64,000 nt of DNA from Chryseobacterium sp. c4a (GTDB lineage Bacteria; Bacteroidota; Bacteroidia; Flavobacteriales; Weeksellaceae). Made by a program: the position numbers and the translations under genes. The stretch lies in contig NZ_WXVU01000006.1 in NCBI RefSeq assembly GCF_009900745.1, positions 62,001 to 126,000 on the forward strand, in the 5' to 3' direction. The notes below the pieces were generated by a model. It was not told where the DNA came from, did no database searches, and was given only the letters and a program-made list of their open reading frames with translations. Each line of letters opens with the position of its first letter. The stretch's first letter is position 1. Positions 45,976 through 63,904 of the stretch are shown here, piece after piece.

Positions 45976-48408
45976 TCAAAGTTTCAGCATTCTTTTGATT
46001 CTCGCATCCAATCCTTCACTGGAAAGAGATTGTCTCAGACTATCCACTTTGATAGGAAAACTGAGTGGAGTAAAGGAGTTGGCGGATTTAAGAATAATGC
46101 TGGACTTTTCGATCCTTTTAAAAGCTTCTATCAGGCGTTGTTCCTGAAGCTGCATATTAAAGACTTCAGTATAGGACTGTCTGATTAAAAAATGGTTGGA
46201 ATCATAATCTTCCAATACTTTAAAAATAAGTCCTGCCGAGCTCTGTAATGATTTATTGGAACGTTGCTGGCCTGCATAATTTTGAATAACCATTCCGGAA
46301 ATTACGGCAATATCTCTGAACTTCCTTCTGGCCATTTCAGCAGAATTGATGCTGGCAATCACATCATTCATCAGATTATCTCTTGTCAATATTTGATGAA
46401 GATTATTATCGTTCAAAGGTATTTCTTTATCACTGAATAATTCGAATCCGTAATCGTTCATTGCCATTGAAAAGGAGATGGGTGCTAGCTTTGAAATACG
46501 ATAGGCAACCAATGCAGCCATTACTTCGTGTACCAAACGGCCTTCAAAAGGATACATAAATAGATGATATCCTTCACGATTTTTAATCATTTCCACCAGA
46601 AATTCATTTTCTTTCGGAATATGTGAGTTTTCTTCCTGATTCACCAGAAGTGGATGAAGGAATTTCAGTTCTTTTTCTGAAGCTTTAGGATTTAAAGCAT
46701 GTGAAAGCTTTTCTCTTAGAAAATGTCCCAAATTAGAACTTAAAGGAAGTCTGCCACCAAGATAACTTGGAACCAAAGCTTTTCCCTTTGCTGACCGTAC
46801 ATAGACCGTCATATCTTTAATCATAGCAACTTCAAGCGTTCGGCCTGCCAGAATAAATTTTTCTTCTTTTTTTAGTTTGGAAATAAAGTATTCTTCAATC
46901 ATTCCTACATAACCGCCGGAAATAAACTTGACTTTCAGCATGGCATCACTAACGATCACTCCCATATTCATCCGATGCAGCATCGCTATTTTCCGGGAAG
47001 TTACTTTGTACAAGCCATCTTTCATAATGACAATTTTATGAAATTCTTCGTAGTTTTTTAAGACACTACCGCCAATCGTAAGAAATTCAAGAATACTTTT
47101 CCATTCTTCTTTCATCATTTCCCGGAAAGCATACGTTTTCTTAATTCTTTCGTAAGTTTCTTCAGGATAAAATCCATTACCCACAGCTAAAGTCATTAAA
47201 AACTGAACCAAGACATCAAAACATAAGACTTGCGGTTCTCTGGGTTCTACAACTTTTTGTTTTACAGCTTCTTTTAAGGCCGCAACTTCTATTAATTCCA
47301 GAGAATGAGTCGGAACGCAATAAATTTTTGAAACCTCAAAAGGGGAGTGTCCGCTACGGCCAGCTCTTTGAAGAAATCTTGCAACTCCTTTTGCAGAACC
47401 AATCTGAATAACTGTATCAACTGGTTTGAAATCTATTCCAAGATCTAGCGATGATGTGGAAACAACTGCTTTCAATTTACCGGAACTTAGATTTTCTTCA
47501 ATCCAGATTCTTAAATGGGCATCAATGGAACTGTGATGAATAGCAATTTGCCCTGCAAAATCAGGATAAGCATCCAGCAGCAGCTGATACCACATTTCAC
47601 TTTGACTGCGTGTATTGGTAAAAACAATCGTGGATTTTGAATTGAGAATAATAGGAACCACTTTATCGGCAAGCTTATGTCCAAGATGACCTGCCCAGGG
47701 CAGTATTTCAACTTCATCAGGAAAAACAGGGATGATATCAATCTTTTTATGTTCTTTGGCTGTGATTTTTGTTTTTTTAATAGTATAAGGAATCAAAACG
47801 TCCATGGCTTCTTCCAGATTTCCTATGGTTGCGGTAATTCCCCAAATTTTTAGTATTGGAACATATTTTCTAAGTTGCGAGATGCCCAGTTCTACCATGA
47901 CCCCACGTTTTGAACCTAATAATTCATGCCATTCATCCACAACCACACATTTCAAATCCCGGAAAAAGGATTCATGATTTTTCTGAGCCAGAAGAAGGTG
48001 AAGACTCTCTGGAGTTACCACAAGAATTTCAGGCATCTTTTTTACCTGCTGCTGTCTTACTTTAGGATCTGTATCGCCATTTCTTACTCCTACCACCCAA
48101 TCTAATCCGATTTCATCCATGGCTTCCTGCATCGCTTTAGCAATATCTTTTGACAAGGATCTAAGAGGAGTTATCCAGATCATTTTTAATCCTTTTTTAT
48201 AGCTTTCAGGATGGTTTAAAAAGTCTGAAATCAATGCTAAAAAAACAGAAAAAGTTTTCCCAAATCCAGTAGGAGCGACTACCATACCACTATATCCGCT
48301 TCCAAATTTCCGCCAGGTATCGATCTGAAATTTAAAAGGAGATATACCTTTATCCTTCATCCATTGCTGAATAAGGGTAAATCCGTGGGTATCTTCAAAG
48401 GCAGTCAT
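45976..48408 (-). CDS. ligase-associated DNA damage response DEXH-box helicase (Lhr-type)
   Basis: Superfamily 2 helicase of 810 residues, the Lhr-like member of the ligase-associated set. Motifs in order: MVVAPTGFGKTFSVFLAL (I), MIWITPLRSLSKDIAKAM (Ia), VVTPESLHLLLAQ, CVVVDEWHELLGSKRG (II, DEWH), IWGITATIGNLE (III), VFTNTRSQSEMWYQ (IV), STSSLDLGIDFKPVDT (V) and FLQRAGRSGHS (VI). The C-terminal half holds the Lhr-core winged helix and DUF4910-like region. It lies one base after the ligase gene in transcription order, so exonuclease, ligase and helicase form a tight operon. It should unwind or remodel DNA ends for the ligase. Confidence 0.93.
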   Translation of the reverse strand: MTAFEDTHGFTLIQQWMKDKGISPFKFQIDTWRKFGSGYSGMVVAPTGFGKTFSVFLALISDFLNHPESYKKGLKMIWITPLRSLSKDIAKAMQEAMDEIGLDWVVGVRNGDTDPKVRQQQVKKMPEILVVTPESLHLLLAQKNHESFFRDLKCVVVDEWHELLGSKRGVMVELGISQLRKYVPILKIWGITATIGNLEEAMDVLIPYTIKKTKITAKEHKKIDIIPVFPDEVEILPWAGHLGHKLADKVVPIILNSKSTIVFTNTRSQSEMWYQLLLDAYPDFAGQIAIHHSSIDAHLRIWIEENLSSGKLKAVVSTSSLDLGIDFKPVDTVIQIGSAKGVARFLQRAGRSGHSPFEVSKIYCVPTHSLELIEVAALKEAVKQKVVEPREPQVLCFDVLVQFLMTLAVGNGFYPEETYERIKKTYAFREMMKEEWKSILEFLTIGGSVLKNYEEFHKIVIMKDGLYKVTSRKIAMLHRMNMGVIVSDAMLKVKFISGGYVGMIEEYFISKLKKEEKFILAGRTLEVAMIKDMTVYVRSAKGKALVPSYLGGRLPLSSNLGHFLREKLSHALNPKASEKELKFLHPLLVNQEENSHIPKENEFLVEMIKNREGYHLFMYPFEGRLVHEVMAALVAYRISKLAPISFSMAMNDYGFELFSDKEIPLNDNNLHQILTRDNLMNDVIASINSAEMARRKFRDIAVISGMVIQNYAGQQRSNKSLQSSAGLIFKVLEDYDSNHFLIRQSYTEVFNMQLQEQRLIEAFKRIEKSSIILKSANSFTPLSFPIKVDSLRQSLSSEGLDARIKRMLKL

Positions 48409-48409
48409 A

Positions 48410-49990
48410 TTATTGTATTAATTTTTTAATTTCTTCCAGGTTGTCAATTTCATCTACTGTTTTATCTTTCCGCCATCTTACAATTCTTGGAAAGCGAAGA
48501 GCTACACCACTTTTATGACGGTTACTGAAGCCAATACCTTCAAAAGCAATTTCAAAGACCAGTTCTGCTTTTACTGTTCGCACAGGGCCAAACTTTTCAA
48601 TAGCGTTTTTCGTTACGAATTTACTGACCTCCATAATTTCTTTATCCGTTAACCCTGAATAGGCTTTGGCAATGGTGACCAATTTGTCTTCATTTTTTAC
48701 AGCAAAGGTATAGTCGGTATAGTAAGCACTTCGTCTGCCGCTTCCTTTTTGAGCATAAATAAGAACAGCATCAATGGTAAATGGATTGATTTTCCATTTC
48801 CACCAGTCGCCTTTTTTTCTTCCGGCATGGTAAGGTGAGCTTTTTTGTTTTAACATCAGCCCTTCGCTATTTATATTTCTGGAGTTTTCTCGAATTTCAT
48901 TCAACTCTTCCCATTTTTCAAAATCTATACTTTGGGAAAGCCTTATATTTTCCGGGGCTTCATTCAGTAATAATTCCTGCAGCATGGCTCTTCTTGACGA
49001 AATAGGTTTATCCCTTAGATCATTTTCTTCAAGTTCCAATAAGTCATAAGCAAATACTTCAATTGGAATTTCCAAGAGCATTTTTCTGGTTAAAGTTTTT
49101 CTGTTTAATCTTTTCTGTAATTCGTTAAAATTTAAAACCTTACCCTCTTTCACTGCAAGTATTTCTCCATCTAAAACAAAGTTTCCTTTCATCGCTTTTA
49201 CAGCTTCTGTAATTTCAGGAAATTGTTCTGTAACAAGTTCTTCACCTCTCGACCAAATAAATACTTCATCATTTCTTCGGATAATCTGTCCACGGATGCC
49301 ATCCCATTTGTATTCAATCAGCCATTCATTGGGTTTTCCCAAATTTTCAAGATCTTTTTCTAAAGGATAAGCCAGACAAAACGGATACGGTTTGGAGTTA
49401 TCCGGATTGATATGTTCTGCTGAAATTAATTCTTTAAAAGAGACTTCATCCGGTAACCATTTTCCCATAAGGCTATGTGTTAATGTACTGGATTCTTCAC
49501 CGGAGAATTTGGTAAGTGCATTAATCAAAGTTTTATCTGATACTCCAATTCTAAAACTACCACCGATTAATTTATTGAAAATCAAACGTTCTGTATAATC
49601 TAGGCCATTCCAAGTATGAAGAACAAAATTTTTCTTTTCGGTTTCATTTTTATCTTTTAAATGAACGATATCCCTCATCCATTGAGAAAGACTTTGTTCA
49701 ATCTTTTCCTCTGGTGGCGGGAGAATCAATGAAAGAGTTTCTCCAAGATCTCCCACGGAAGAGTAGCTTTCCTGAAAAAGCCATACAGGAAGTCCTGTAA
49801 TTTCTAAAGCCCAATCTTTCATCAGATTGGTATTGACATTTCTTTTGGGTCTTTTCCCTGTAAATAAAGCAATAAACCATACTTTATCTTCATCCGGAGT
49901 ACGTTCCAGATAATCGATAATGGCATCAATTTTAGCATTGGTTTTATTGGTGGTTTCCAATGCGTTGATAAGATCTGCAAAATATCTCAT
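48410..49990 (-). CDS. ATP-dependent DNA ligase (ligase-associated DNA damage response)
   Basis: ATP-dependent DNA ligase of 526 residues, in addition to the NAD-dependent LigA that most bacteria use for replication. An N-terminal DNA-binding domain (about 1-200) contains GSFRIGVSDKTLINALTKF. The adenylation motif I is EYKWDGIRGQ with nucleophile K228, followed by DGEILAV (motif III), SEGLMLKQ (IV) and KKGDWWKWK (V), with a C-terminal OB fold. It overlaps the exonuclease gene by 4 bases (ATGA) and precedes the helicase gene by one base. The set is thought to repair damaged or broken DNA. Confidence 0.95.
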   Translation of the reverse strand: MRYFADLINALETTNKTNAKIDAIIDYLERTPDEDKVWFIALFTGKRPKRNVNTNLMKDWALEITGLPVWLFQESYSSVGDLGETLSLILPPPEEKIEQSLSQWMRDIVHLKDKNETEKKNFVLHTWNGLDYTERLIFNKLIGGSFRIGVSDKTLINALTKFSGEESSTLTHSLMGKWLPDEVSFKELISAEHINPDNSKPYPFCLAYPLEKDLENLGKPNEWLIEYKWDGIRGQIIRRNDEVFIWSRGEELVTEQFPEITEAVKAMKGNFVLDGEILAVKEGKVLNFNELQKRLNRKTLTRKMLLEIPIEVFAYDLLELEENDLRDKPISSRRAMLQELLLNEAPENIRLSQSIDFEKWEELNEIRENSRNINSEGLMLKQKSSPYHAGRKKGDWWKWKINPFTIDAVLIYAQKGSGRRSAYYTDYTFAVKNEDKLVTIAKAYSGLTDKEIMEVSKFVTKNAIEKFGPVRTVKAELVFEIAFEGIGFSNRHKSGVALRFPRIVRWRKDKTVDEIDNLEEIKKLIQ

Positions 49991-51009
49991 GATTCCGGAT
50001 TTTCAATGGTTTCCTGTTCCGACACTTCTTCATCTTCACCGAATAAGGTTTCTATGACATCTGCTTTAATACCAATTTCATTCAGATATTTTGAAAAAAT
50101 CTCAGTCTGCCCATGGGTAACATGTACCAGCTCTGCTTCCGTTGCTTTTACCGTTTGCAGTAAGCCTTTCCAGTCTGCATGATCGCTCATGGCAAATCCT
50201 GCATCTGCGCTTCGCCATCTTCTGGCTCCACGCACCTGCATCCAGCCTGAACATATAGCTGTAGCCGGATCAGGAATCTTTTTAATGATATTGCTATCGA
50301 GTAAAGCCGGAGGAACAATCACAATTTCATGTTCCATTTCTTTCGGATGTTCTCTGAAATCTCCAATCGTGTATTCCGGGAGCGCAATTCCAACAGCTTC
50401 AAAGGCTTCATTAAGCTTTCCGATAGAGTAGTGAACATATATTTTACCAATTCCTTCCACAGCTTTCATAATACGCTGAGCTTTGCCTAAAGAATATCCA
50501 ATAAACACAGATGTCTTACTATTTTCCTGATTTTTTAGCACCCAATTCTGAAGTTTTCTGTTTAAATCATCCACTTCGAGCCAATTGTAAATGGGCAATC
50601 CAAAGGTACTTTCCGTAACAAACTCATTGCATCTTACCAATTCAAAAGGTGTACTAAGACCGTCATTCTGAACTTTATAATCTCCGGAGACAACCGTAAC
50701 AAATCCTTTATATTCCAATCTTATCTGGGCAGAACCAATAATATGACCTGCAGGATGAAGCGAAACATTTACTCCATTGATATTAATTTTCTCACCATAT
50801 TCCACACTCTGGCATTCTATATCAGTGCCAATTCTTTGGTATAAAATAGGTTTGGTAAAATGATGGCAAAGGTATTTCTTCATTCCCCAACGGGCATGAT
50901 CGGCGTGCCCATGAGTAATGACCGCCATATCTACAGGTCTCCAGGGATCTATATAAAATTTGCCCTGAGGACAGTAAATTCCTTTTTTTGTAAATGTTAT
51001 TAATTTCAA
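49987..51009 (-). CDS. ligase-associated DNA damage response exonuclease (MBL/beta-CASP)
   Basis: Metallo-beta-lactamase-fold nuclease of 340 residues, similar to the SNM1/Artemis and mRNA 3'-end processing families. The metal site is AVITHGHADHARWG (HxHxDH), with a further His in HPAGHIIGSAQI, Asp in VVSGDYK and the beta-CASP region KTSVFIGYSLGKAQ. Near the C-terminus come AICSGWMQVRGARRWRSADA and MSDHADWKGLLQ. It is the first gene of the operon and overlaps the ligase gene by 4 bases. It probably trims DNA ends before ligation. No exact -7 box was found in the upstream spacer. The C-terminal tail is acidic. Confidence 0.93.
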   Translation of the reverse strand: MKLITFTKKGIYCPQGKFYIDPWRPVDMAVITHGHADHARWGMKKYLCHHFTKPILYQRIGTDIECQSVEYGEKININGVNVSLHPAGHIIGSAQIRLEYKGFVTVVSGDYKVQNDGLSTPFELVRCNEFVTESTFGLPIYNWLEVDDLNRKLQNWVLKNQENSKTSVFIGYSLGKAQRIMKAVEGIGKIYVHYSIGKLNEAFEAVGIALPEYTIGDFREHPKEMEHEIVIVPPALLDSNIIKKIPDPATAICSGWMQVRGARRWRSADAGFAMSDHADWKGLLQTVKATEAELVHVTHGQTEIFSKYLNEIGIKADVIETLFGEDEEVSEQETIENPES

Positions 51010-54820: not shown

Positions 54821-54888
54821 CAAAATTATGGTGATTTACAGGCACAGACGCTTGATGTAGATCATACGTTTGAATTGATCTGGATCAA
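54821..54888 (-). promoter_or_regulatory. promoter with two Crp/Fnr-type boxes upstream of the PRISE gene
   Basis: The minus-strand -7 box TAATTTTG is at 54821-54828. TTGATGTAGATCAT (54852-54865) is centred 30.5 bp upstream of it, and TTGATCTGGATCAA (54875-54888) 23 bp farther. The second is a perfect palindrome that matches the Fnr consensus TTGAT-N4-ATCAA. It overlaps the stop codon of the neighbouring crp gene. Confidence 0.7.
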
Positions 54889-55469
54889 GTATTATTGAGT
54901 AAATTCTTTTTACGAATCCTACTTATGGTTTCAGGAGCCAGCCCCAGATAAGAGGCTATAAGATTATGAGGAACCCGCTTAATCATTTCAGGGTTTTTCT
55001 GTGCCAGCTGCAGGTATTTTTCTTCAGCAGTATATCCATTGGAAACAATAAGCCTGTAGTCTTTGGTAACAAGGCTGTTTTGATAGAGAATTCTGAAATA
55101 ACGATCCATTACAGGAATTTCCAGCATCATTTTTTCATAATCGTCCAAAGTAATCATCAATACTTCGGTATCTTCTACAGCATCAATATTTAACACTGCT
55201 TTTTCCTGATGTATAAAGCTATTAAAATCGGAAATCCACCAGCCTTCAAAGGCAAACATATTGATGTGTTCATTTCCTTTTTCGTCAGGATAATAAGACT
55301 TTAGCAATCCATTGCTGACAAATGAAAGGCATTTACAGATATCTCCTTCTTGCAACAGATACTGTTTCTTCTTCAGCTTTTTTATTGTAAAAAATTTCTG
55401 AATCAGACTTTTCTGCTCATCATTGATATCAACCTTATTCTGAATATGGGAAAGTAACACCTCAAACAT
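54885..55469 (-). CDS. Crp/Fnr family regulator upstream of the PRISE gene
   Basis: Regulator of 194 residues, of the same branch as the protein at 20908. The sensor domain has KKQYLLQEGDICKCLSFVSN and YYPDEKGNEHINMFAFEGWW. The C-terminal HTH is in VPHNLIASYLGLAPETISRI. It has scattered cysteines (ICKC) but not the Fnr cluster. It is encoded 87 bases upstream of the PRISE gene on the same strand. Its own promoter is an exact -7 box at 55496-55503. The two Crp-type palindromes between the genes suggest that it controls the reductase. Confidence 0.87.
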   Translation of the reverse strand: MFEVLLSHIQNKVDINDEQKSLIQKFFTIKKLKKKQYLLQEGDICKCLSFVSNGLLKSYYPDEKGNEHINMFAFEGWWISDFNSFIHQEKAVLNIDAVEDTEVLMITLDDYEKMMLEIPVMDRYFRILYQNSLVTKDYRLIVSNGYTAEEKYLQLAQKNPEMIKRVPHNLIASYLGLAPETISRIRKKNLLNNT

Positions 55470-55495
55470 CCGACAAATATTTCATCAAAAATACT

Positions 55496-55503
55496 GTTTT
55501 CAA
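55496..55503 (-). promoter_or_regulatory. -7 element of the crp gene at 54885-55469
   Basis: Minus-strand TATTTTTG, an exact TAnnTTTG match, with a leader of about 20 bases. Confidence 0.55.
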
Positions 55504-55810
55504 TAAGAACTGAAACCTTATTTTTCAAAATCATAGAAGTTAATTCCGGTTTCTATATCCTTAATTTATTTGGAATGAGAATGTTTTAAAGTCATAAGAA
55601 AATTTATAGCAAGTGTATCAATTGTTTTTTTACTGCCAATACACGAATAAAATATTTATACAAAAAAATTATGTACGTACATGAAAGGTATTTTAAACCG
55701 GATTGACATCTAAAATTATAGTATATAAAATGTTATTCAGAAAAAATTAATATCCTATTTACTGTTTAAAACCGGGAAAATTTATAGAAATTTGCAGTAA
55801 ATTAAAATCA
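55504..55810. other. AT-rich spacer with a short perfect palindrome
   Basis: The spacer between the divergent crp and CAT genes holds ATGTACGTACAT, a perfect 12-bp palindrome at 55671-55682. I see no gene, no clear -7 box for the CAT gene (GAAATTTG at 55788-55795 is the closest), and no other feature. Confidence 0.45.
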
Positions 55811-56437
55811 ATGAAAATTATAGACCTTGAGCAATGGAATAGAAAGGAGCATTTTGAATTTTTCTCTAAAATGGCAAACCCATATTTTGGATTTACAACA
55901 GAGGTAGATTGTACAAAAGCATTTGATACTGCCAAAGAGAAAGGATATTCTTTTTTTGCCTATTATTATCACAAGTCTATGGTTGCTGTGAATAAAATTG
56001 ATGAATTAAAGCTCAGAATCATTGATGGTCAGGTGATTTTATTTGATACAGTTCATGCCGGAAGTACAATTGGCCGACCGGATGGAACCTTTGGCTTTTC
56101 ATTCACGCATTTTTCAGAAGATTTTGAAACCTTTAATGCCGCATTACAGGAAGAAATTAAAGGTGTACACGAGTCTACAGGACTTAGACTGAGCAATGAT
56201 AGACTGGGAAAAGATCATATAAGACATACTACCATTCCATGGATTTCTTTCAGTGCTCTTGTTCATCCTACGGATTTTAATACAGGAGAATCGATTCCAA
56301 AGATTTCCTTTGGCAAGTTCAATATCCGTGATGGAAAAAAATACCTTCCTGTTTCTATTGAAGCTCATCATGGATTGGCAGATGGTATCCACATTGCTAA
56401 ATATTTGGAAGAGTTTCAAAGACAGCTTGATTTATAA
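55811..56437 (+). CDS. chloramphenicol acetyltransferase family protein (classical CAT fold)
   Basis: Trimeric-type acetyltransferase of 208 residues. The active-site motif is EAHHGLADGIHIAKYLEEFQ, with catalytic His187 and structural Asp191 in the HHxxxDG pattern. The N-terminus IDLEQWNRKEHFEFFSK and the middle PWISFSALVHP are also typical. Flavobacterial members of this family often occur on chromosomes with no proven resistance, so antibiotic acetylation is possible but not shown. It stands alone, 171 bases before the three-gene TerB-C system. Chloramphenicol-contact residues cannot be judged reliably from sequence alone. Confidence 0.87.
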   Translation: MKIIDLEQWNRKEHFEFFSKMANPYFGFTTEVDCTKAFDTAKEKGYSFFAYYYHKSMVAVNKIDELKLRIIDGQVILFDTVHAGSTIGRPDGTFGFSFTHFSEDFETFNAALQEEIKGVHESTGLRLSNDRLGKDHIRHTTIPWISFSALVHPTDFNTGESIPKISFGKFNIRDGKKYLPVSIEAHHGLADGIHIAKYLEEFQRQLDL

Positions 56438-56478
56438 GGTTGAGAGTCGGAGTATGTTAAGGTGAAAATGCTCTCGTA

Positions 56479-56523
56479 TTACGGAAAACCGTAAAGAATA
56501 TTTTCAAAACTTAAGTAAATTTG
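56479..56523 (+). promoter_or_regulatory. palindrome and promoter of the TerB-C/ATPase/helicase operon
   Basis: TTACGG-AAAA-CCGTAA (56479-56494) is a perfect palindrome centred 29.5 bp upstream of the exact -7 box TAAATTTG (56516-56523). The geometry equals that of the three Crp-type promoters elsewhere in the window, though the half-site differs. The leader would be about 80 bases. Confidence 0.6.
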
Positions 56524-56608
56524 AGATATTATATTGCTATATTAGAACATTGATTTCATAATCAAGAAAGCTAATTACTCGATAACTCAATTTTACTAAG
56601 ACACCATC

Positions 56609-58054
56609 ATGCTGAATGATAACACTATTGATGATTCCATAATAGATGTTTCGGGAAATACAGAAACTCCGATTAATTTTGGAAGTATATCTTCTGTTCC
56701 GAATGAGCCAACTATGACTTATGATCCCGGTTCATGGAAAATAGGACAAAAATATGTCCGCAAATTATCTCTTAACGAGGATCAGGTCAAAATGCTGGAT
56801 AAAATGTCTTTTTCCGGCAATGTTTTCAACGAAATAGAATATTGTAAAATCCAGATATTAAAACAGTTCCTAAGGGCTGTTGAATACCTCTATCAGTACT
56901 GTATTCCTATCAATAAATCTTATGCTACAGTCATTGATGAACTTTCAGAAATCATTGTATGCCTTCGTTACAACTATAGGAAAGATAGTCTTAACTATAG
57001 TTATACCTATGATTCTGTACAGACCGAGATTTTCAATCATATTCTGAAATTATGTGAGAATAATGTTCGTGAGATATATGGTATCAAAAGAAAAATCAAT
57101 GTCGATTTCAATTACAACCATCCGGATATTCTTCATCAGTATAATCGAAAAGTCGTTTCTAAGTTGGAGGCTTTTCTGGCTGAAAATCAACATCAGGTTC
57201 TGGATGCCGACTATAAAACAAATATTATCCTCAATGAGAATAATACAAACCGTTGGAAAACCAAATTCGATGAAATCAAAGAAGATTATTCCAATCCCTT
57301 GGCTTTTGAAAGAGAAATTTTCAGACTTACAGAAGTAAATAGTAAAAACCCATCTGTTGATGCCATCTTTTTCGAAGCTTCAAAGTTTGTCGCGGGGTAT
57401 GATAAAACCTGTGCATTAAGACTTTATATTCATTATCTTGATAAAGATCTGAATTCACCAAAGTTCGATCAGAGGCAGCTGAATAAGACCGTTCAAAAAA
57501 GCTTATTTTCTACAAAAGAACAGCTGTCTGATTTTGAAAAGATCCTTAGTGAGTTTATGACAGACAGAGATCTGGAACAAGCTATTGAAAAGGCGAATAT
57601 GCTTTATGCTCCTAAAAGAAAAAGAATTACCATTGATCCTGAAGCGATTAAAAGCATTCAGGCTTTAGATTCTGAAACAGCCGATATTTTAGGGCAAATT
57701 CTCAATGAAGAAGATGAAGATATTCCTGTAAAAACAGAGGATATTTCCTATGAACAGCAGGAAACCATTACGATTCCTCAAGTTCAGGAAAATCAAACTA
57801 TAAAATATCTTACAGAATTAAGTTTATCACCTATTCAAAAAGAAATTCTGGATCTGTTTGAGAAGCAAAGTTTTAATATGCTTCAAACCGATCTTGGAGA
57901 TTTTATCAAAGCCAAAGGCTTATTTATGGGGTCTACCATAGATACTATCAACGAATGCTGCTATGAAGCCCTTGATGATATTCTCATTGAAGAAGAAGAC
58001 GATTACTTTATTATAAACACCGATTACTATAAAAAACTTTTAAATAATGATTGA
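56609..58054 (+). CDS. TerB-C domain protein, first gene of the ATPase-helicase operon
   Basis: Cytoplasmic protein of 481 residues. An in-frame stop 12 bases upstream fixes the ATG. The first 45 residues are polar. Residues about 45-340 are helical and resemble the middle part of TerB-N/TerB-C proteins: KYVRKLSLNEDQVKMLDKM and FNEIEYCKIQILKQFLRAVE. Residues about 345-478 form the TerB-C domain, ending with LGDFIKAKGLFMGSTIDTIN, ECCYEALDDILIEEEDDY and a terminal helix. A TerB-N domain is missing compared with larger relatives. The gene overlaps the ATPase gene by 8 bases. TerB-C domains occur in stress and phage-response operons; its role here may be sensing or scaffolding. Confidence 0.78.
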   Translation: MLNDNTIDDSIIDVSGNTETPINFGSISSVPNEPTMTYDPGSWKIGQKYVRKLSLNEDQVKMLDKMSFSGNVFNEIEYCKIQILKQFLRAVEYLYQYCIPINKSYATVIDELSEIIVCLRYNYRKDSLNYSYTYDSVQTEIFNHILKLCENNVREIYGIKRKINVDFNYNHPDILHQYNRKVVSKLEAFLAENQHQVLDADYKTNIILNENNTNRWKTKFDEIKEDYSNPLAFEREIFRLTEVNSKNPSVDAIFFEASKFVAGYDKTCALRLYIHYLDKDLNSPKFDQRQLNKTVQKSLFSTKEQLSDFEKILSEFMTDRDLEQAIEKANMLYAPKRKRITIDPEAIKSIQALDSETADILGQILNEEDEDIPVKTEDISYEQQETITIPQVQENQTIKYLTELSLSPIQKEILDLFEKQSFNMLQTDLGDFIKAKGLFMGSTIDTINECCYEALDDILIEEEDDYFIINTDYYKKLLNND

Positions 58055-59363
58055 CAATATTAAACCCAAAGAAGCAACCTCCATTATCAATTCACTGATA
58101 AGCGGTGTGGTTCCTAAAATTGGAGTACAACATATTACAGTAGGAAGATCTGATGAAGTGAATGCATTCATCGGTTCTCTTGAAGACATTAAAAACGGAC
58201 TTAGTCTTGTAAAATTCTGGATTGGAGATTTTGGAAGCGGAAAATCTTTTATGCTTCATCTTTTAAATACGGTAGCTTTAAAGCAAAAGTTTGTCGTAGC
58301 CAATGCCGATTTTACTCCGGATAACAGATTGTATGCCAATGATGGGAAGAGTGTTATTCTCTATTCTGCTATTATGGATAATATTGCTATCCAGACCAAA
58401 CCGGAAGGAGGCGCTTTGCAAACACTGTTGGAAAAATGGATTGAGCAGGTGATCTCAAAAACAGCAGAGGAAAACCAAATTTCTTTAATAGAAATAAGAA
58501 ATGATCAGTATTTAAACCTGATTCAGAATTCTATCATGAAAACGGTGAATGAAATTACCGAGGTGGGCGGTTTCGATTTTGGCTCTGCGATTGTAAAATA
58601 CTACGAAGGCTATATCAAAGGCGATGAATTACTGCGCCGAAATGCTTTAAAATGGCTGAAAGGAGAATATACTACCAAAACAGAAGCCCGACAGGATCTG
58701 GGAATAAGGGAAATCATCAATGATTCCAATTATTATGATATGCTGAAGAATTTCTGTAAGCTTTTTGTAAGCATGGGCTATAGCGGGTTTATGATTAATC
58801 TGGATGAAGCAATCAACCTTTACAAAATATCCGTTTCAGCTTCCCGTGAAAAAAATTATGAGAAGATCTTATCCATTTATAATGACTGTTTCCAGGGAAA
58901 AGTGTCTAATCTTTTCATCAATTTTGCCGGAACAAAAGAGTTCTTGGAAAATGAACGAAGAGGACTTTTCAGTTATCAGGCTTTAAAATCGAGGCTAGAA
59001 GGGAATAAATTTGAAACTTCTGAATTCCGTGATTTTGCACAACCGGTTATCAAACTGATGCCATTGAATCATAATGAAGTCTTTGTATTGCTTAAAAAGC
59101 TAAAGCTGATCTTCGATTTCAATTACAAAACTGAACTGAATATTACTGATGAAGAGATTTCTGCTTTTATGGAAGAGATGTTCAATAAACCCGGAGCTGC
59201 AGAGTTTCTTACTCCAAGAGAAGTAATCAGAGATTTCCTGAATATCCTGAATATTATCAGACAAAATCCCGATGTTGATAAAAACAGACTTTTCGGAGAT
59301 ATTGAAATTTCCGATGAAAGACCCAATGATCTGATTATTTTAGATAGTATTGAGGAACTATGA
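58047..59363 (+). CDS. BrxD-like DUF2791 P-loop ATPase
   Basis: ATPase of 438 residues in the DUF2791 family that includes BrxD of type 2 BREX phage defence. Walker A is GDFGSGKS (60-67), and Walker B is GFMINLDEA with Asp253-Glu254. A sensor-like SNLFINFAGTKEF follows at about 287, and the C-terminal part includes EFLTPREVIRDFLNILNII. The N-terminal lead KPKEATSIINSLISGVVPKIG is conserved in the family. It overlaps both neighbours (8 and 4 bases), so all three proteins should be made in fixed ratio. In BREX it acts with the helicase BrxHI; the methylase PglX and phosphatase PglZ are not seen here. Confidence 0.85.
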   Translation: MIDNIKPKEATSIINSLISGVVPKIGVQHITVGRSDEVNAFIGSLEDIKNGLSLVKFWIGDFGSGKSFMLHLLNTVALKQKFVVANADFTPDNRLYANDGKSVILYSAIMDNIAIQTKPEGGALQTLLEKWIEQVISKTAEENQISLIEIRNDQYLNLIQNSIMKTVNEITEVGGFDFGSAIVKYYEGYIKGDELLRRNALKWLKGEYTTKTEARQDLGIREIINDSNYYDMLKNFCKLFVSMGYSGFMINLDEAINLYKISVSASREKNYEKILSIYNDCFQGKVSNLFINFAGTKEFLENERRGLFSYQALKSRLEGNKFETSEFRDFAQPVIKLMPLNHNEVFVLLKKLKLIFDFNYKTELNITDEEISAFMEEMFNKPGAAEFLTPREVIRDFLNILNIIRQNPDVDKNRLFGDIEISDERPNDLIILDSIEEL

Positions 59364-61513
59364 CAGCATTCGACCTGCTTTCTGAGCCGATCAGAAAATA
59401 TATCCGGGATAAGAAATGGGAGAGCCTGAGGAATATTCAGGAAGCTGCCATTCAAAGGATTATGACCACGGATAACAATTATGTTTTAATATCCAGAACA
59501 GCTTCAGGTAAAACTGAGGCTGCTTTTCTGCCTATTTTATCGAAGGTGAATTTTAAAGAACCCGGTGTAAAGGTACTGTATATTTCTCCTTTAATTGCCT
59601 TAATTAATGATCAGTTTGTTCGTGTTGAAAGCCTTTGTGAATATATGGATGTTCCGGTCACCAAATGGCACGGAGAAGCCGCTAAAGGAGCCAAAGACAG
59701 GGTGTTAAAAAATCCGGAAGGGATCGTTCTTATTACTCCGGAATCTTTGGAGGCCATGTTTGTGAATAAACCTTACGATATTAAACACTTGTTTTCAACA
59801 TTGGATTATATTGTGATTGATGAAATTCATTCGTTTCTGGGATCAGATCGTGGTACTCATTTACAATCTCTACTGAATCGTCTTCAAAAAGTAAATACAA
59901 GAAGATTCAGTATTGTAGGACTTTCTGCCACTGTAAGTGATGCCAACCAATATATGGAGCTTAAAAACTTTCTTGGAGATCCTGAACGTACCAAAATCAT
60001 CAGAGATACAACGCCTAAACCGATTAATGCAGTTTTCAAATACTTTGCAGGTTCTGCCAATGAACTCCCATTACCCTTATTAAAGGATTTATATGTAAGA
60101 ACACGAGAAAGTAAAGTTCTTATTTTTCCCAATGCAAGAGGTCGGGTAGAAGAAGTTGCAGTGAAATTAAAACAAATTTCAGAAAGAGTAGGCGGCCATT
60201 CAAACTATTTTTCCCATCATTCCTCTGTAGATAAGGAAGTTCGCGAATATGTAGAATTTTTTGCTAAAAATTCCACTCTTCAAAATTTTTGTATTTCCTG
60301 TACTTCAACCCTGGAACTGGGAATTGATATCGGTAATGTAGATGAAGTCGTACAGATTGATGCCACTCATAGTATTGCCTCTCTGATTCAAAGGGTAGGA
60401 AGGAGCGGAAGACGTGAAGGCAGAGCAAGTAACCTGTTTTTATATGCTACGGATGAATGGAGTTTATTACAATCCTTAGCATGCTGGCTACTATATCAAG
60501 AGCAGTATATAGAACCTATTTCTATCAATGAAAAGCCTTATGATGTTTTAGTCCATCAAATTTTATCTATTGTTAAAGGCACATCAGGAATCTCTTTATC
60601 CAAACTTTTGGAGGAAATAATGACCAATTCTGTTTTCGCACCCCTTAAAAAAGAAGAGGTAGAAGAGATTATCACTCATCTTATTACCCTTGAGTTTTTA
60701 GAAAAGCTGGGGAATGAGCTGATCATCGGAATAGAAGGAGAAGAAGTTGTGAATAGCAGGGATTTTTACAGCCTTTTTGAGACTCAGGTTTTCTTTAAAG
60801 TTTCCAGTAATGCTGTTAAAATTGGAGAGTTGCCATTATCACCACAAATAAGAGAAAATGAAAATATTTACCTGTCAGCAAAGATCTGGAGCATTATTGA
60901 TATTGATTTTAAAACAAAAAAAATAGAAGTAATACCCGCCAACGATGGTAAAAAACCTACATTCTTTGGTAACTCAGCTGATACTGCTTACCGTATTCGG
61001 GAAAAAATGCTTGAAATACTTATCTCAAAAGAAACGTATGACTTTTTGGATGAAATGAGTATTGAAGCCATTCATGCTTTAAGAAAAGAGTTTTCTGTAT
61101 TTATGATTCACGATTGTAAAACGGACAGGCCTTTATTAACCAGTAATGAACATCTTTCTTTTTATTCCTTTAGCAGTTCTAAAATCAACAGAACCTTGCA
61201 GTTTATTCTGAAAACATTGGACGTTAAAAGTATTCTCCACGATAATGAAAGCCTATTTGAAATAGAGAATTGTAACAGTAGTGAGCTGACAGCTATTTTA
61301 AATGGGGTTAACAGAGATCAGGATATTGATTCAATACTTACCAATTTACTAGAGAACACTCCTGAAATGATAGATTTTTCAAAATGGGGAAAATATCTGC
61401 CTATCCAATACAAAGTGGCACTATTAAAAGAAAAATATTTTGATTTTGAAGGCTGCTACACTTATCTCCAGCAGTTAAAATTCGTAGAAAATCAGCTGGA
61501 ACAACTCCCTTAA
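59360..61513 (+). CDS. Lhr/BrxHI-like DEAD/DEAH-box helicase of the three-gene operon
   Basis: Superfamily 2 helicase of 717 residues. Motifs: SRTASGKTEAAFLPIL (I, residues 45-60), LYISPLIALINDQ (Ia), VLITPESLEAMF, DYIVIDEIHSFLGSDRG (II, DEIH at 154-157), IVGLSATVSDANQY (III), CTSTLELGIDIGNVDEV (V) and SLIQRVGRSGRREG (VI). The C-terminal 270 residues are unlike the LADDR helicase in this window and may bind partners. It is the BrxHI-like partner of the preceding ATPase, overlapping it by 4 bases. There is no terminator hairpin after it, and it converges on a crp gene 42 bases away. It probably unwinds foreign or damaged DNA. Confidence 0.88.
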   Translation: MTAFDLLSEPIRKYIRDKKWESLRNIQEAAIQRIMTTDNNYVLISRTASGKTEAAFLPILSKVNFKEPGVKVLYISPLIALINDQFVRVESLCEYMDVPVTKWHGEAAKGAKDRVLKNPEGIVLITPESLEAMFVNKPYDIKHLFSTLDYIVIDEIHSFLGSDRGTHLQSLLNRLQKVNTRRFSIVGLSATVSDANQYMELKNFLGDPERTKIIRDTTPKPINAVFKYFAGSANELPLPLLKDLYVRTRESKVLIFPNARGRVEEVAVKLKQISERVGGHSNYFSHHSSVDKEVREYVEFFAKNSTLQNFCISCTSTLELGIDIGNVDEVVQIDATHSIASLIQRVGRSGRREGRASNLFLYATDEWSLLQSLACWLLYQEQYIEPISINEKPYDVLVHQILSIVKGTSGISLSKLLEEIMTNSVFAPLKKEEVEEIITHLITLEFLEKLGNELIIGIEGEEVVNSRDFYSLFETQVFFKVSSNAVKIGELPLSPQIRENENIYLSAKIWSIIDIDFKTKKIEVIPANDGKKPTFFGNSADTAYRIREKMLEILISKETYDFLDEMSIEAIHALRKEFSVFMIHDCKTDRPLLTSNEHLSFYSFSSSKINRTLQFILKTLDVKSILHDNESLFEIENCNSSELTAILNGVNRDQDIDSILTNLLENTPEMIDFSKWGKYLPIQYKVALLKEKYFDFEGCYTYLQQLKFVENQLEQLP

Positions 61514-61555
61514 AAATATTCCGGATATTTATCTAAATATCCGGAATTTAATACT

Positions 61556-62152
61556 TTAATAGTAAATCTTTCTTTTCTCAAGTTTTACAATTTTATCTTT
61601 TTCCATCTGTTTGATAGTTCGTATTACAGTTTCCACACGAAGACCAATCAATGAAGCCAGCTGTTGTCTGGTAAGTGGGATAAGGAAAGAATAAGGTGCT
61701 TTATTATTATCATGATAACTTTTCAGGTAATCAAGCAGTAATTTGAGCTTGGATACCGGATTTTGAAACGAAAGATTATAAAACATAATATATTTATAAT
61801 ACATCCTTTCTGCCAGGCATTGATAGATGTTCAAAGAAATTTCCGGATTACTTTGTATCAGATTTAGAAAGCTGGCTTTAGGCAATCTGAAAACAGAAGA
61901 ATCTGCTATCGTTACTGCATTCATAGGATAAGGGCGTTCTACGAACAAAAGAGACTCTCCAAAACTGTGGCCATCGGAAAATATATTTTGAATAAACTCT
62001 TTTCCATCCTCAGTATAATTATTGAGTTTAATTTTCCCTTTTTCTATCTGGTAATAGTATAAAGGAATATCTTCTTCCCAAAAAATGGTTTCGCCTGCTT
62101 TATAATGCTTTATTTCTGCATTAAATGAAAGTAATAAATCTTCAGTGATCAT
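61556..62152 (-). CDS. Crp/Fnr family regulator convergent with the three-gene operon
   Basis: Regulator of 198 residues, close to the paralogues at 24645 and 25297: it shares MITEDLLLSFNAEIKHY, ETIFWEEDIPLYYYQIEKGK, IKLNNYTEDGKEFIQNIF and the HTH LTRQQLASLIGLRVETVIRT. The conserved YPMNAV and SFGESLLFVERP are present too. No iron-sulphur cysteines are visible. It is encoded convergently next to the TerB-C/ATPase/helicase operon, whose promoter carries a palindrome at the activator position, so it is a candidate regulator of that operon. No exact -7 box was seen upstream of it. Confidence 0.87.
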   Translation of the reverse strand: MITEDLLLSFNAEIKHYKAGETIFWEEDIPLYYYQIEKGKIKLNNYTEDGKEFIQNIFSDGHSFGESLLFVERPYPMNAVTIADSSVFRLPKASFLNLIQSNPEISLNIYQCLAERMYYKYIMFYNLSFQNPVSKLKLLLDYLKSYHDNNKAPYSFLIPLTRQQLASLIGLRVETVIRTIKQMEKDKIVKLEKRKIYY

Positions 62153-62741
62153 ATCTGTGACTTCGTTATCATCTTACAAATCTTAATACAATCTTTTTCA
62201 TCATTTCATATCAAGTTGTTTCAAAACTCTAAAAGAATAAAGAAACAATTATTTCAATCACTGACCATGGAATAGGGTACCATTCACATACCACAAAATA
62301 TTACATTATATAGTCAATTCTTTTAAAAACTATTGACTACAATCATAAAAAGTGAAGAGACGAACCTCTTACATTTAAGCCTAGCAAAAAAAGATGGTAA
62401 ACGGTGTGATAAAAGCTGTTAAGATATTTTATTGAAAAACATAACGTGGTATGTATGTGGTACTCTGTTTTAATAAAATTTTAATCATTTTTTATTTCTT
62501 TGTCCTATACAAAAATGAATAAAAATTAAGAGGTATGAATTTTTTAATTCAATCATTTGCCAAATATAATATACAAACCCAAATTGGTTAAATATTATTA
62601 AATAAAATTAAATATATTTTGAATATATAAAATTAATTCTATTCCAATAAAACGATCAAGCACAAGATTGATAAGAGAAAAAGATTTTGTACTGGTAGGC
62701 AAAAGATGCCCATCAGAAACAAGTAGAGATGAAAAAGTATT
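62153..62741. other. 589-base AT-rich intergenic region
   Basis: No coding frame with family features, no strong hairpin, no exact TAnnTTTG box and no palindrome of note was found. A short repeated GTGGTA unit occurs around 62446-62461 (GTGGTATGTATGTGGTAC). It presumably holds promoters for the flanking divergent genes, but I could not locate them. Confidence 0.5.
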
Positions 62742-63083
62742 ATGAAAAATAAAAAAACTGAACTGAACTTAGAGGATTTGAATCAAAAGATTCTTGTACA
62801 AGATGAAATAATGGCATTAGCCAAAGCAAATTCACCCCGCCTGCTTAATAAATTCAGATTGGTCTATCCGGATTTTTTCGAAAAGTTATCTGCTATACAG
62901 CCTGGCCTTAAAAATTCTGAACTGATCTTCTGTATTTACCTAAAGCTTAATATGACAACCAAAGAAATAGCAACCTGTATCTTTGTTACCCCAAAAGCTA
63001 TACAAAACCGGAAAAACCGAATCAGAAAGAAACTTAATATTCCTTCTGAGTTTGATATCTACAAATGGTTTAATGAAATTTAA
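62742..63083 (+). CDS. small LuxR-type HTH protein
   Basis: Protein of 113 residues. The C-terminal half carries a GerE/LuxR-like HTH: LNMTTKEIATCIFVTPKAIQ followed by NRKNRIRKKLNIPSEFDIYK. The preceding segment RLVYPDFFEKLSAIQPGLKN matches the helical linker seen in larger Bacteroidota sensor regulators that carry a TPR or periplasmic part. Here the sensor part is absent, so it is a minimal regulator or a truncated one; the ATG and polar N-terminus look like a genuine start. Its target is unknown. The next gene converges on it after 8 bases. Confidence 0.78.
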   Translation: MKNKKTELNLEDLNQKILVQDEIMALAKANSPRLLNKFRLVYPDFFEKLSAIQPGLKNSELIFCIYLKLNMTTKEIATCIFVTPKAIQNRKNRIRKKLNIPSEFDIYKWFNEI

Positions 63084-63091
63084 GCCATTTT

Positions 63092-63823
63092 TTAAGCTTT
63101 AATCACGGCCTTATCCAGATCATGATAAAGAAGTATTTTCCAATCATTCTCCCTGGCTTCCTTTTCCCATAAAAGTCTTAGTTCCATTGCTTTTCTGCCA
63201 TCGAAATCACTTTTGTAGGCAAGATGGTATTTCAAATAGGAAGCCTGTGGAAGATCATCCGCTCCGTAGAAAACGGTCTCTCCATTTTCTCTAATCCAGA
63301 ATACCTGCATAAATGGAGTATGACCGCCTACCACTTCATACGAGATTTCATCAGTAATCTGCCCTTTGTCTTCATTCATCCAAATAATATTGGGTAATTG
63401 GATCAATTGGTCAAGAATATCAAAATCAAAAGAAGGGTTTCCTTTATTTTCCAGGGCAAAATCCAACTCTCGTTTTTGAATATAGATCTGTGCATTAGGA
63501 AATGTTGCTTCATACCCTTGATCTGTAAGCTGTAGAGCTCCATCAATATGATCTTTATGAAGATGGGAGAGAAGGAGTTTGGTGATCTGCTCAGGACGTA
63601 TATTTTCTTTCTCAAGAATTGTTGAGATAACAGTTTTACCCGCCTCATTTTCCCAGCCAATTCCAGCATCTAAAAGAATATAATCATTTTCAGTAATGAT
63701 AAGAAAAGGCTGAACAGACATTTTGATCCCGGAAACAGTATCAAAGTTTTCTTCTGTTAAAAGCGTAAAATCTTTGGTTTTGCTTGTTGAGAAATTGCCT
63801 TCTTTGAGTGGAATGATTTTCAT
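63092..63823 (-). CDS. MBL-fold metallo-hydrolase
   Basis: Metallo-beta-lactamase-fold hydrolase of 243 residues. The ATG at 63823 (MKIIPLKEGNFSTSKTKDF) is chosen because the family begins there; an extension to 63868 adds unrelated residues. The metal site is in LLLSHLHKDHIDGALQL (HxHxDH), with further ligands in VVGGHTPFMQVFW and FYGADDLPQASYL. A late His is in LLYHDLDKAV. It resembles quorum-quenching lactonase-like and glyoxalase II-like enzymes, but the substrate is unknown. No signal peptide. It lies just upstream of an unidentified minus-strand gene. Confidence 0.87.
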   Translation of the reverse strand: MKIIPLKEGNFSTSKTKDFTLLTEENFDTVSGIKMSVQPFLIITENDYILLDAGIGWENEAGKTVISTILEKENIRPEQITKLLLSHLHKDHIDGALQLTDQGYEATFPNAQIYIQKRELDFALENKGNPSFDFDILDQLIQLPNIIWMNEDKGQITDEISYEVVGGHTPFMQVFWIRENGETVFYGADDLPQASYLKYHLAYKSDFDGRKAMELRLLWEKEARENDWKILLYHDLDKAVIKA

Positions 63824-63904
63824 GTTGCAAATTTCCTGAATATTTCCAACATCCGAAAGGTTTTTCATCAATATCCATGATCGGCAAAAACAATGGAAAT
63901 GTTT

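Follow-up and report, generated by a model that had tools for sequence, protein, structure and literature searches.

A Bacteroidota-branch variant of the Shango anti-phage operon in Chryseobacterium, with a short SngA, a putative activator-driven promoter and a probably lost fourth gene

Shango is an anti-phage system for which PMC10952713, in its available portion, cites Millman et al. (2022) and lists the domain TerB (PF05099). According to the accessible part of Johnson et al. (2023; PMC10250203), the PA14 copy of Shango, placed in Pseudomonas aeruginosa PAO1, cuts plating 10-100-fold for many but not all of the phages tested and protects strongly in liquid culture, and an E. coli copy is cited there as having an approximately 10-fold effect on two phages. 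No mechanism of Shango was found in the open-licence PubMed Central (PMC) literature searched. Two other systems resemble it: type 2 BREX, which has a related ATPase (BrxD) and helicase (BrxHI), and the ligase-associated operon (TIGR04120, TIGR04121, TIGR04122), which likewise has an Lhr-type helicase; SngC, BrxHI, DruE and DpdJ have been described as a potentially distinct clade (PMC12278908, available excerpt). Here we analyse a 64,000-nucleotide (nt) stretch of Chryseobacterium sp. c4a (contig NZ_WXVU01000006.1, positions 62,001 to 126,000; hereafter the window), near the end of which lies what is almost certainly a Shango operon. Matches for Shango in Chryseobacterium in the same literature look unrelated, as judged by title and the start of the abstract.

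The operon consists of three forward-strand reading frames, sngA at 56609-58054 (481 amino acids, aa), sngB at 58047-59363 (438 aa) and sngC at 59360-61513 (717 aa), with overlaps of 8 nt between sngA and sngB and 4 nt between sngB and sngC. Pfam recognises TerB_C in SngA (9.8e-21; residues 332-477), BrxC_BrxD in SngB (3.6e-145; a family that we take to be the former DUF2791), and DEAD (3.1e-33), Helicase_C (1.5e-14) and WH_Lhr (5.4e-05, below its cut-off) in SngC; a nuclease domain was recognised by Pfam in none of the three. An initial annotation of this DNA had described just such overlapping genes for a TerB-C protein, a DUF2791-type ATPase and an Lhr-type helicase, and these coordinates and matches agree with it. 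The PADLOC profiles for Shango (PDLC03958-03960) match all three proteins, at 3.5e-37 for SngA, 4.4e-165 for SngB and 7.9e-210 for SngC, and the window proteins score 548 bits to SngB as against 150 to BrxD, and 697 bits to SngC as against 447 to BrxHI. Walker A (G60, G63, G65, K66) and D253-E254 of SngB are among the residues identical in at least 97% of 62 SngB sequences, and the SngC motifs TAxGKTEA, DExH, SAT and QRxGRSGR among those identical in at least 97% of 61 SngC sequences, so that the earlier claim of intact ATPase and helicase motifs holds. By sequence, SngB belongs to the BrxC/BrxD family of P-loop ATPases and SngC to the superfamily 2 helicases, close to BrxHI and Lhr, and both are intact. 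With the three genes adjacent and in order, all three profiles matched and the SngB and SngC motifs intact, the module that the initial annotation had left unnamed and derived from BREX already has a name; its pairing of a BrxD-like ATPase and a BrxHI-like helicase with a TerB-C protein stands.

The three genes travel together, which the initial annotation had proposed as a check of its reading. Of the 148 Chryseobacterium genomes, 40 have SngB, and the same 40 have SngA, so these are not the fixed core genes that it had named as the contrary outcome; SngC (at least 360 bits) was found in 39, the contig of the fortieth (G048) ending inside sngB. In this set (39 fetched loci and the window), both sngA and sngB were found at 39 loci, of which 32 show an overlap of 8 nt and 6 one of 11 nt; for sngB and sngC the overlap is 4 nt in 37 of 38. 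The exceptions are broken copies (sngA of L096, sngC of L091). Identity to the window proteins within the genus is 87-98% for SngB, 67-88% for SngC and 50-88% for SngA, which is thus the fastest-changing of the three. In a phylum sample SngB (E <= 1e-80) was present in 20 of 395 genomes, and all 19 loci fetched outside the genus carry the genes in the order A-B-C, with SngA of L150 cut by a contig end; the recurrence of the trio bears out its description as a stand-alone module. SngB matches were found in 691 plasmid records, of which 593 are from Klebsiella or Salmonella, and in no phage record. A tree built for SngB alone places Chryseobacterium with G299, G301, G311, G511, Hymenobacter and Persicobacter in one clade, and the remaining phylum sample with Sphingobium in a second. 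The window SngB is 78% identical to those of Hymenobacter and Persicobacter and 38-43% identical to the listed non-Bacteroidota plasmid copies.

By the composition of its proteins, the locus is a Bacteroidota-branch variant of the already described Shango, with which it shares gene order, the SngB and SngC families and their motifs, TerB_C in the first gene and a compact operon, and from which it differs in its SngB clade and its short SngA. TerB_C is the sole domain that Pfam recognises in the window SngA, whereas the long SngA of Sphingobium (L121, 1035 aa) and Cetobacterium (L122, 736 aa) carry TerB_N and TerB in addition. The same scan found TerB_C, with neither TerB nor TerB_N, in the same-branch SngA of L062, L075 and L119 and in that of L079, a fusion that also carries a BRCT domain, and hhalign between Chryseobacterium SngA and long SngA was significant over TerB_C alone. 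A uniformly short form throughout the branch was considered and rejected, because SngA of L075 has 665 aa and aligns from position 63 of the SngA profile; same-branch members outside the genus have 590-885 aa. Among these members outside the genus, the domain scan of the N-terminal parts covered L119, which has TerB_C only. Against solved structures, SngA gave one match by sequence at 0.034, which was not used, and SngB gave none at E <= 0.01. One locus (L159, genome G533) carries four SngA-like reading frames in tandem, the first of them short, 5' of a single sngB-sngC pair, possibly a SngA repertoire.

The chromosomal surroundings are recurrent. A CAT-family gene lies upstream of Shango in 26 of the 40 loci (the same-site loci), in the window as an acetyltransferase-like gene (PF00302) at 55811-56437, and downstream there is mostly a Crp-family, LuxR-like or metallo-beta-lactamase gene. 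The corresponding flanks adjoin in three of 20 fetched genomes from the 108 that lack Shango: in L039, 44 nt separate the CAT-family from the Crp-family gene, and in L042 and L048 about 520 nt separate the CAT-family from the LuxR-like gene. No integrase was found among the 8 Pfam-scanned proteins around Shango (54885-63871). The initial annotation had looked to a link with defence islands; at the window site the neighbours are ordinary chromosomal genes, with no obvious defence island. Some 5.6 kb away, on the reverse strand at 45976-51009, lies a ligase-associated DNA damage operon whose exonuclease (TIGR04122), ligase (TIGR04120) and DEXH helicase (TIGR04121) all exceed their NCBIfam cut-offs, the last being a second Lhr-type helicase in the window.

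Ahead of sngA, a perfect 16-base-pair (bp) palindrome, TTACGGAAAACCGTAA (56479-56494, forward strand), the proposed activator site, is followed after 21 bp by a TAnnTTTG element, TAAATTTG (56516-56523, forward strand), which we take to be the Bacteroidota-type -7 consensus; on that assignment the centre of the palindrome lies near -41. It is this palindrome, and not a gene, that the earlier feature start at 56479 marks. Allowing up to two mismatches, the window holds 4 such sites against 0.89 expected, and this is its only exact one. The same arrangement, TTACGGN4CCGTAA 21 bp before TAnnTTTG, is present at L094 and at every one of the 26 same-site loci, in 25 of them exactly and in L085 with a single mismatch; among the remaining 13 loci, L077 alone has a one-mismatch copy, farther upstream. 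Since the palindrome is terminator-like on the forward strand, we considered it as the terminator of the CAT-family gene and rejected this: a promoter role fits better, because the 21-bp spacing holds across loci in which the CAT-family gene and sngA are anywhere from 129 to 1320 nt apart. The spacing is kept even where a whole gene, encoding the TerB-like/BRCT protein described below, stands between promoter and sngA. In L067 the element lies ahead of that gene and 1026 nt before sngA, and in L062 a degenerate palindrome copy lies ahead of it; the promoter element goes with whichever gene is first in the operon. In L039, which lacks the genes, no relaxed promoter element was found either (at most two palindrome mismatches, at most one in TAnnTTTG, spacing 20-22; limits set after the exact sites were seen), an indication that the promoter is gained and lost along with the genes.

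This composite is not confined to Shango. The window genome has 7 palindromes, against none in a reversed control, and 5 of them have TAnnTTTG at 21 bp; the exact composite occurs in 132 of 148 genomes and never in the reversed control. With the spacing left free between 8 and 36, 125 of the 150 matches listed fall at 21, 18 at 20 or 22, and 7 elsewhere (hand count). The element is thus very probably a regulated promoter with the palindrome at constant spacing, in line with the promoter and activator-position palindrome of the initial annotation, and such constancy points to an activator touching RNA polymerase rather than to a repressor. A 5-6-5 geometry centred near -41 matches a class II site of the Crp/Fnr type; two Crp-family genes flank Shango, one on each side, and nothing ties them to the palindrome. 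A WYL-domain activator, of the kind of SiwR, PafBC or DriD, is possible as well, although the geometry would fit a Crp/Fnr protein equally. SiwR binds an imperfect palindrome and activates upon genotoxic stress, and WYL regulators have been linked to defence genes (PMC10693628, accessible part). In L161 (G299, of the same order and another family), a one-mismatch palindrome with TAnnTTTG at 21 bp stands 1200 nt 5' of sngA, so the promoter element may reach beyond Chryseobacterium.

What the composite precedes suggests a wider role. In the window genome its sites stand before Shango, an HSDR_N protein, a DUF4236 protein and two small proteins, one of them basic and one presumably a DUF3606 protein. 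In a sample of 30 loci, one per genome (31 sites; first gene found for 30), the 10 larger first genes were scanned with PADLOC and gave PDC-S06 (2.6e-217), GajA (1.4e-57), IetS (1.5e-22) and a type II methyltransferase (1.3e-90), weak matches to DrmC (5.5e-10) and PDC-S59 (1e-7), and no match for four; outside these ten, the target in L222 is the TerB-like/BRCT gene of a Shango locus. Upstream of gajA, the relaxed element occurs within 500 nt in 16 of the best 30 loci (one exact) from 46 genomes with a match, as against 1 of 30 hsdM-type loci searched over up to 1500 nt, partly hsdM coding sequence (Fisher 2.3e-5; each set comprises the 30 top-scoring loci, taken one per genome, and as the genomes are related the loci are not independent). 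Two gajA loci counted as misses, L260 and L262, have hardly any upstream sequence because they start at the end of a contig, and the gajA start in L262 is mislocated. Controls for gajA gave 0 in 100 shuffles of single bases, 0 in reversed sequences and 1 on the opposite strand. The background amounts to 47 relaxed sites in 1.14 Mb over both strands, 27 of which belong to Shango promoters, those of L094 and the same-site loci.

We therefore think it probable that a shared defence regulon lies behind the palindrome, and a promoter switch common to Shango and other defence genes across the genus looks new: no counterpart in Bacteroidota was apparent by title or start of abstract in the open-licence PMC literature. 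Gac/Rsm of Pseudomonas acts after transcription, in contrast to the palindrome at a set promoter spacing, which points to a DNA-binding activator. The logic is otherwise the same, one pathway raising several phage-defence systems, among them Gabija in P. aeruginosa and Shango in P. fluorescens (PMC11888443, available part). It was the one comparable case found in that literature, the joint switching-on of many defence systems being poorly understood. A short operator with a set place in the promoter, exact in so many genomes, makes the question of co-regulation testable, and could flag undescribed defence genes from the promoter alone. One locus, L083 (G059), has six relaxed-element matches within 20 kb around Shango, two of which are both readings of one palindrome; it is possibly a defence island under the same control.

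Some relatives of the window operon carry a fourth gene. Directly 5' of sngA in 8 loci is a 296-aa protein with an N-terminal part that is TerB-like by eye, followed by BRCT (2.6e-10 by Pfam in L062), and in L079 an in-frame fusion joins it to SngA in a protein of 806 aa. A genus-wide search found the whole gene in 9 of 148 genomes, in all 9 at Shango; the remaining matches were partial, and most fell on the BRCT region of reading frames some 670-740 aa long, taken to be DNA ligase. Beyond these nine, 7 of the 40 Shango loci hold remnants. Between promoter and sngA, the first codons are traceable in L071, L081, L088, L089, L090 and L095 (24-30 of 36 nt, a match reached by none of 300 single-base shuffles), and in L074 a piece of the gene start forms part of SngA; no upstream remnant was found in 13 of the 19 same-site loci tested, the window and L074 included. 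Since the carriers L081, L088, L090 and L095 are close to the window in the SngB tree, its three-gene form is most simply a loss, and on this comparison is probably derived, the fourth gene having been lost. The presence of the gene in relatives and its repeated loss look new; for TerB with BRCT in phage defence, the open-licence PMC search returned WYL-domain work alone, in the portions available.

The identity of the N-terminal part is less firm than that of BRCT. Pfam gives no TerB match there, and hhalign of this part with long SngA near TerB is weak (probability 52%, E 1.5e-4), so we dropped a firm TerB assignment and use "TerB-like" by eye only. The BRCT domain of the protein is similar to that of DNA ligase A and that of RFC1, and T219, R227 and K248 appear aligned with RFC1 residues that are presumably 5' phosphate binders. 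A second arrangement occurs on a Hymenobacter plasmid (NZ_CP094535.1, 4232-12218; L119), where a related gene (27% identical) directly follows sngC of a Shango with TerB_C-only SngA, beside a Fic-family gene on the opposite strand. Five plasmid records match TerB-like/BRCT, and of the three with readable annotation only that of Hymenobacter has it beside Shango; the unannotated plasmid loci L125 and L126 gave no Shango match. At phylum scale we rejected the idea of a Shango-only protein, as there are homologues without Shango. One of these, in G361 (L194, 6384-8826), stands alone near a protein that is TIR-like by eye, perhaps another defence use of the same protein. As a gene that has been fused to SngA in one case and lost repeatedly, the fourth gene offers a handle on the possible function of SngA.

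We suggest that the window holds a Shango operon with a short SngA, expressed from an activator-driven promoter and acting through its ATPase and helicase, and we put the probability of this overall explanation at roughly 0.6. A dimeric trans-acting activator would bind the palindrome in place of a -33 element and switch on expression, and the same activator would also drive Gabija and other defence or stress genes. More tentatively, SngA could serve as the sensor or adaptor of the system: it would link the ATPase SngB to phage DNA and load the helicase SngC, and SngC would then strip or block phage replication rather than cut DNA; we hold this helicase-loading mechanism to be rather less likely than not. 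In the four-gene relatives, the TerB-like/BRCT protein may add recognition of 5'-phosphorylated DNA ends or nicks, a DNA-end reader that would have worked with SngA and in one species became part of it. The odds are about even for the fuller picture, a genus-wide immune regulon under one dimeric activator near -41 that takes in Shango, Gabija, probably IetAS, PDC-S06, others and small stress-like proteins, together with an ancestral four-component Shango of which the window form is a derived, simplified version.

Several observations weigh against this explanation. The window SngA spans only positions 190-525 of the 528-position SngA profile, and TerB PF05099 was not detected in it by Pfam; because TerB_C is all that is recognised, we file the locus as a Shango variant and not as a typical member. 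An AlphaFold2 model of SngA built with 8 sequences is poor (pLDDT 54, pTM 0.34) and gave no Foldseek match at E <= 0.001, so the role given to SngA is a guess. The exact palindrome is absent within 2.2 kb upstream in 14 of 40 loci (L077 and L085 have it with one mismatch), and the switch is therefore not a fixed part of Shango. Near full-length TerB-like/BRCT homologues occur in G361, G350, G178 and G259, none of which is among the 20 of 395 genomes with SngB. The anti-phage activity in print, in the parts of those papers available, concerns other Shango copies, none from the Bacteroidota branch described here.

The kinship with BREX could mean that the locus is a remnant or offshoot of type 2 BREX, in which BrxD and BrxHI were kept after PglX, PglZ and other genes were lost. 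The ATPase does match BrxD (NF033438, 152 bits; PADLOC 2.5e-44) and the helicase BrxHI (2.9e-134), but both PADLOC matches are weaker than those to Shango, the SngB and SngC profiles (548 and 697 bits) fitting far better, and 152 bits lies under the NCBIfam cut-off of 350 for that BrxD equivalog. The A-B-C trio, moreover, recurs in Chryseobacterium and in 19 other Bacteroidota loci. Unlike type 2 BREX, the locus has a TerB_C gene, and the 8 proteins Pfam-scanned between 54885 and 63871 include no further BREX gene such as PglX, PglZ, BrxA or BrxB. We rejected the BREX remnant on profile scores and regard it as highly improbable. Somewhat less remote, though still very unlikely, is a chromosomal DNA-repair or housekeeping helicase operon whose effect on phages is incidental. 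The ordinary neighbours, the same upstream gene in 26 of 40 loci and the exonuclease/ligase/Lhr-type helicase operon at 45976-51009 would all accord with it, yet SngC scores 234 against the TIGR04121 cut-off of 850, where the helicase of that operon scores 1070, and has no ligase or exonuclease partner in its own operon. Shango was not found in 108 of 148 genomes, and the usual neighbour is absent from 14 of 40 loci, of which L094 and perhaps L096 nevertheless have other flanking genes in common with the site. SngB relatives sit on 691 plasmid records, and the anti-phage effect of PA14 Shango is in print (PMC10250203, accessible part).

The regulon has its own competitor: the palindrome could be a stress-response operator of an ordinary kind, with defence genes making up a minor part of its targets by chance. 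More than half of the first genes behind the composite (16 of 30) encode fewer than 150 aa, DUF1508 proteins included, and four of the ten scanned by PADLOC are without a match. Set against this are the contrast between gajA (16 of 30) and hsdM (1 of 30), and targets that include PDC-S06, GajA, IetS, a type II methyltransferase and all 26 same-site Shango loci. We consider the stress operator unlikely, if clearly the strongest of the three alternatives, and retain the shared defence regulon.

At the other end of the operon, terminator-like sites in the stretch number 4 against 3.1 expected, so that a hairpin of this kind has weak support. One of 13 pairs lies at 61518-61547, between the convergent sngC and Crp-family genes; scored on the reverse strand, it would be the terminator of the Crp-family gene.

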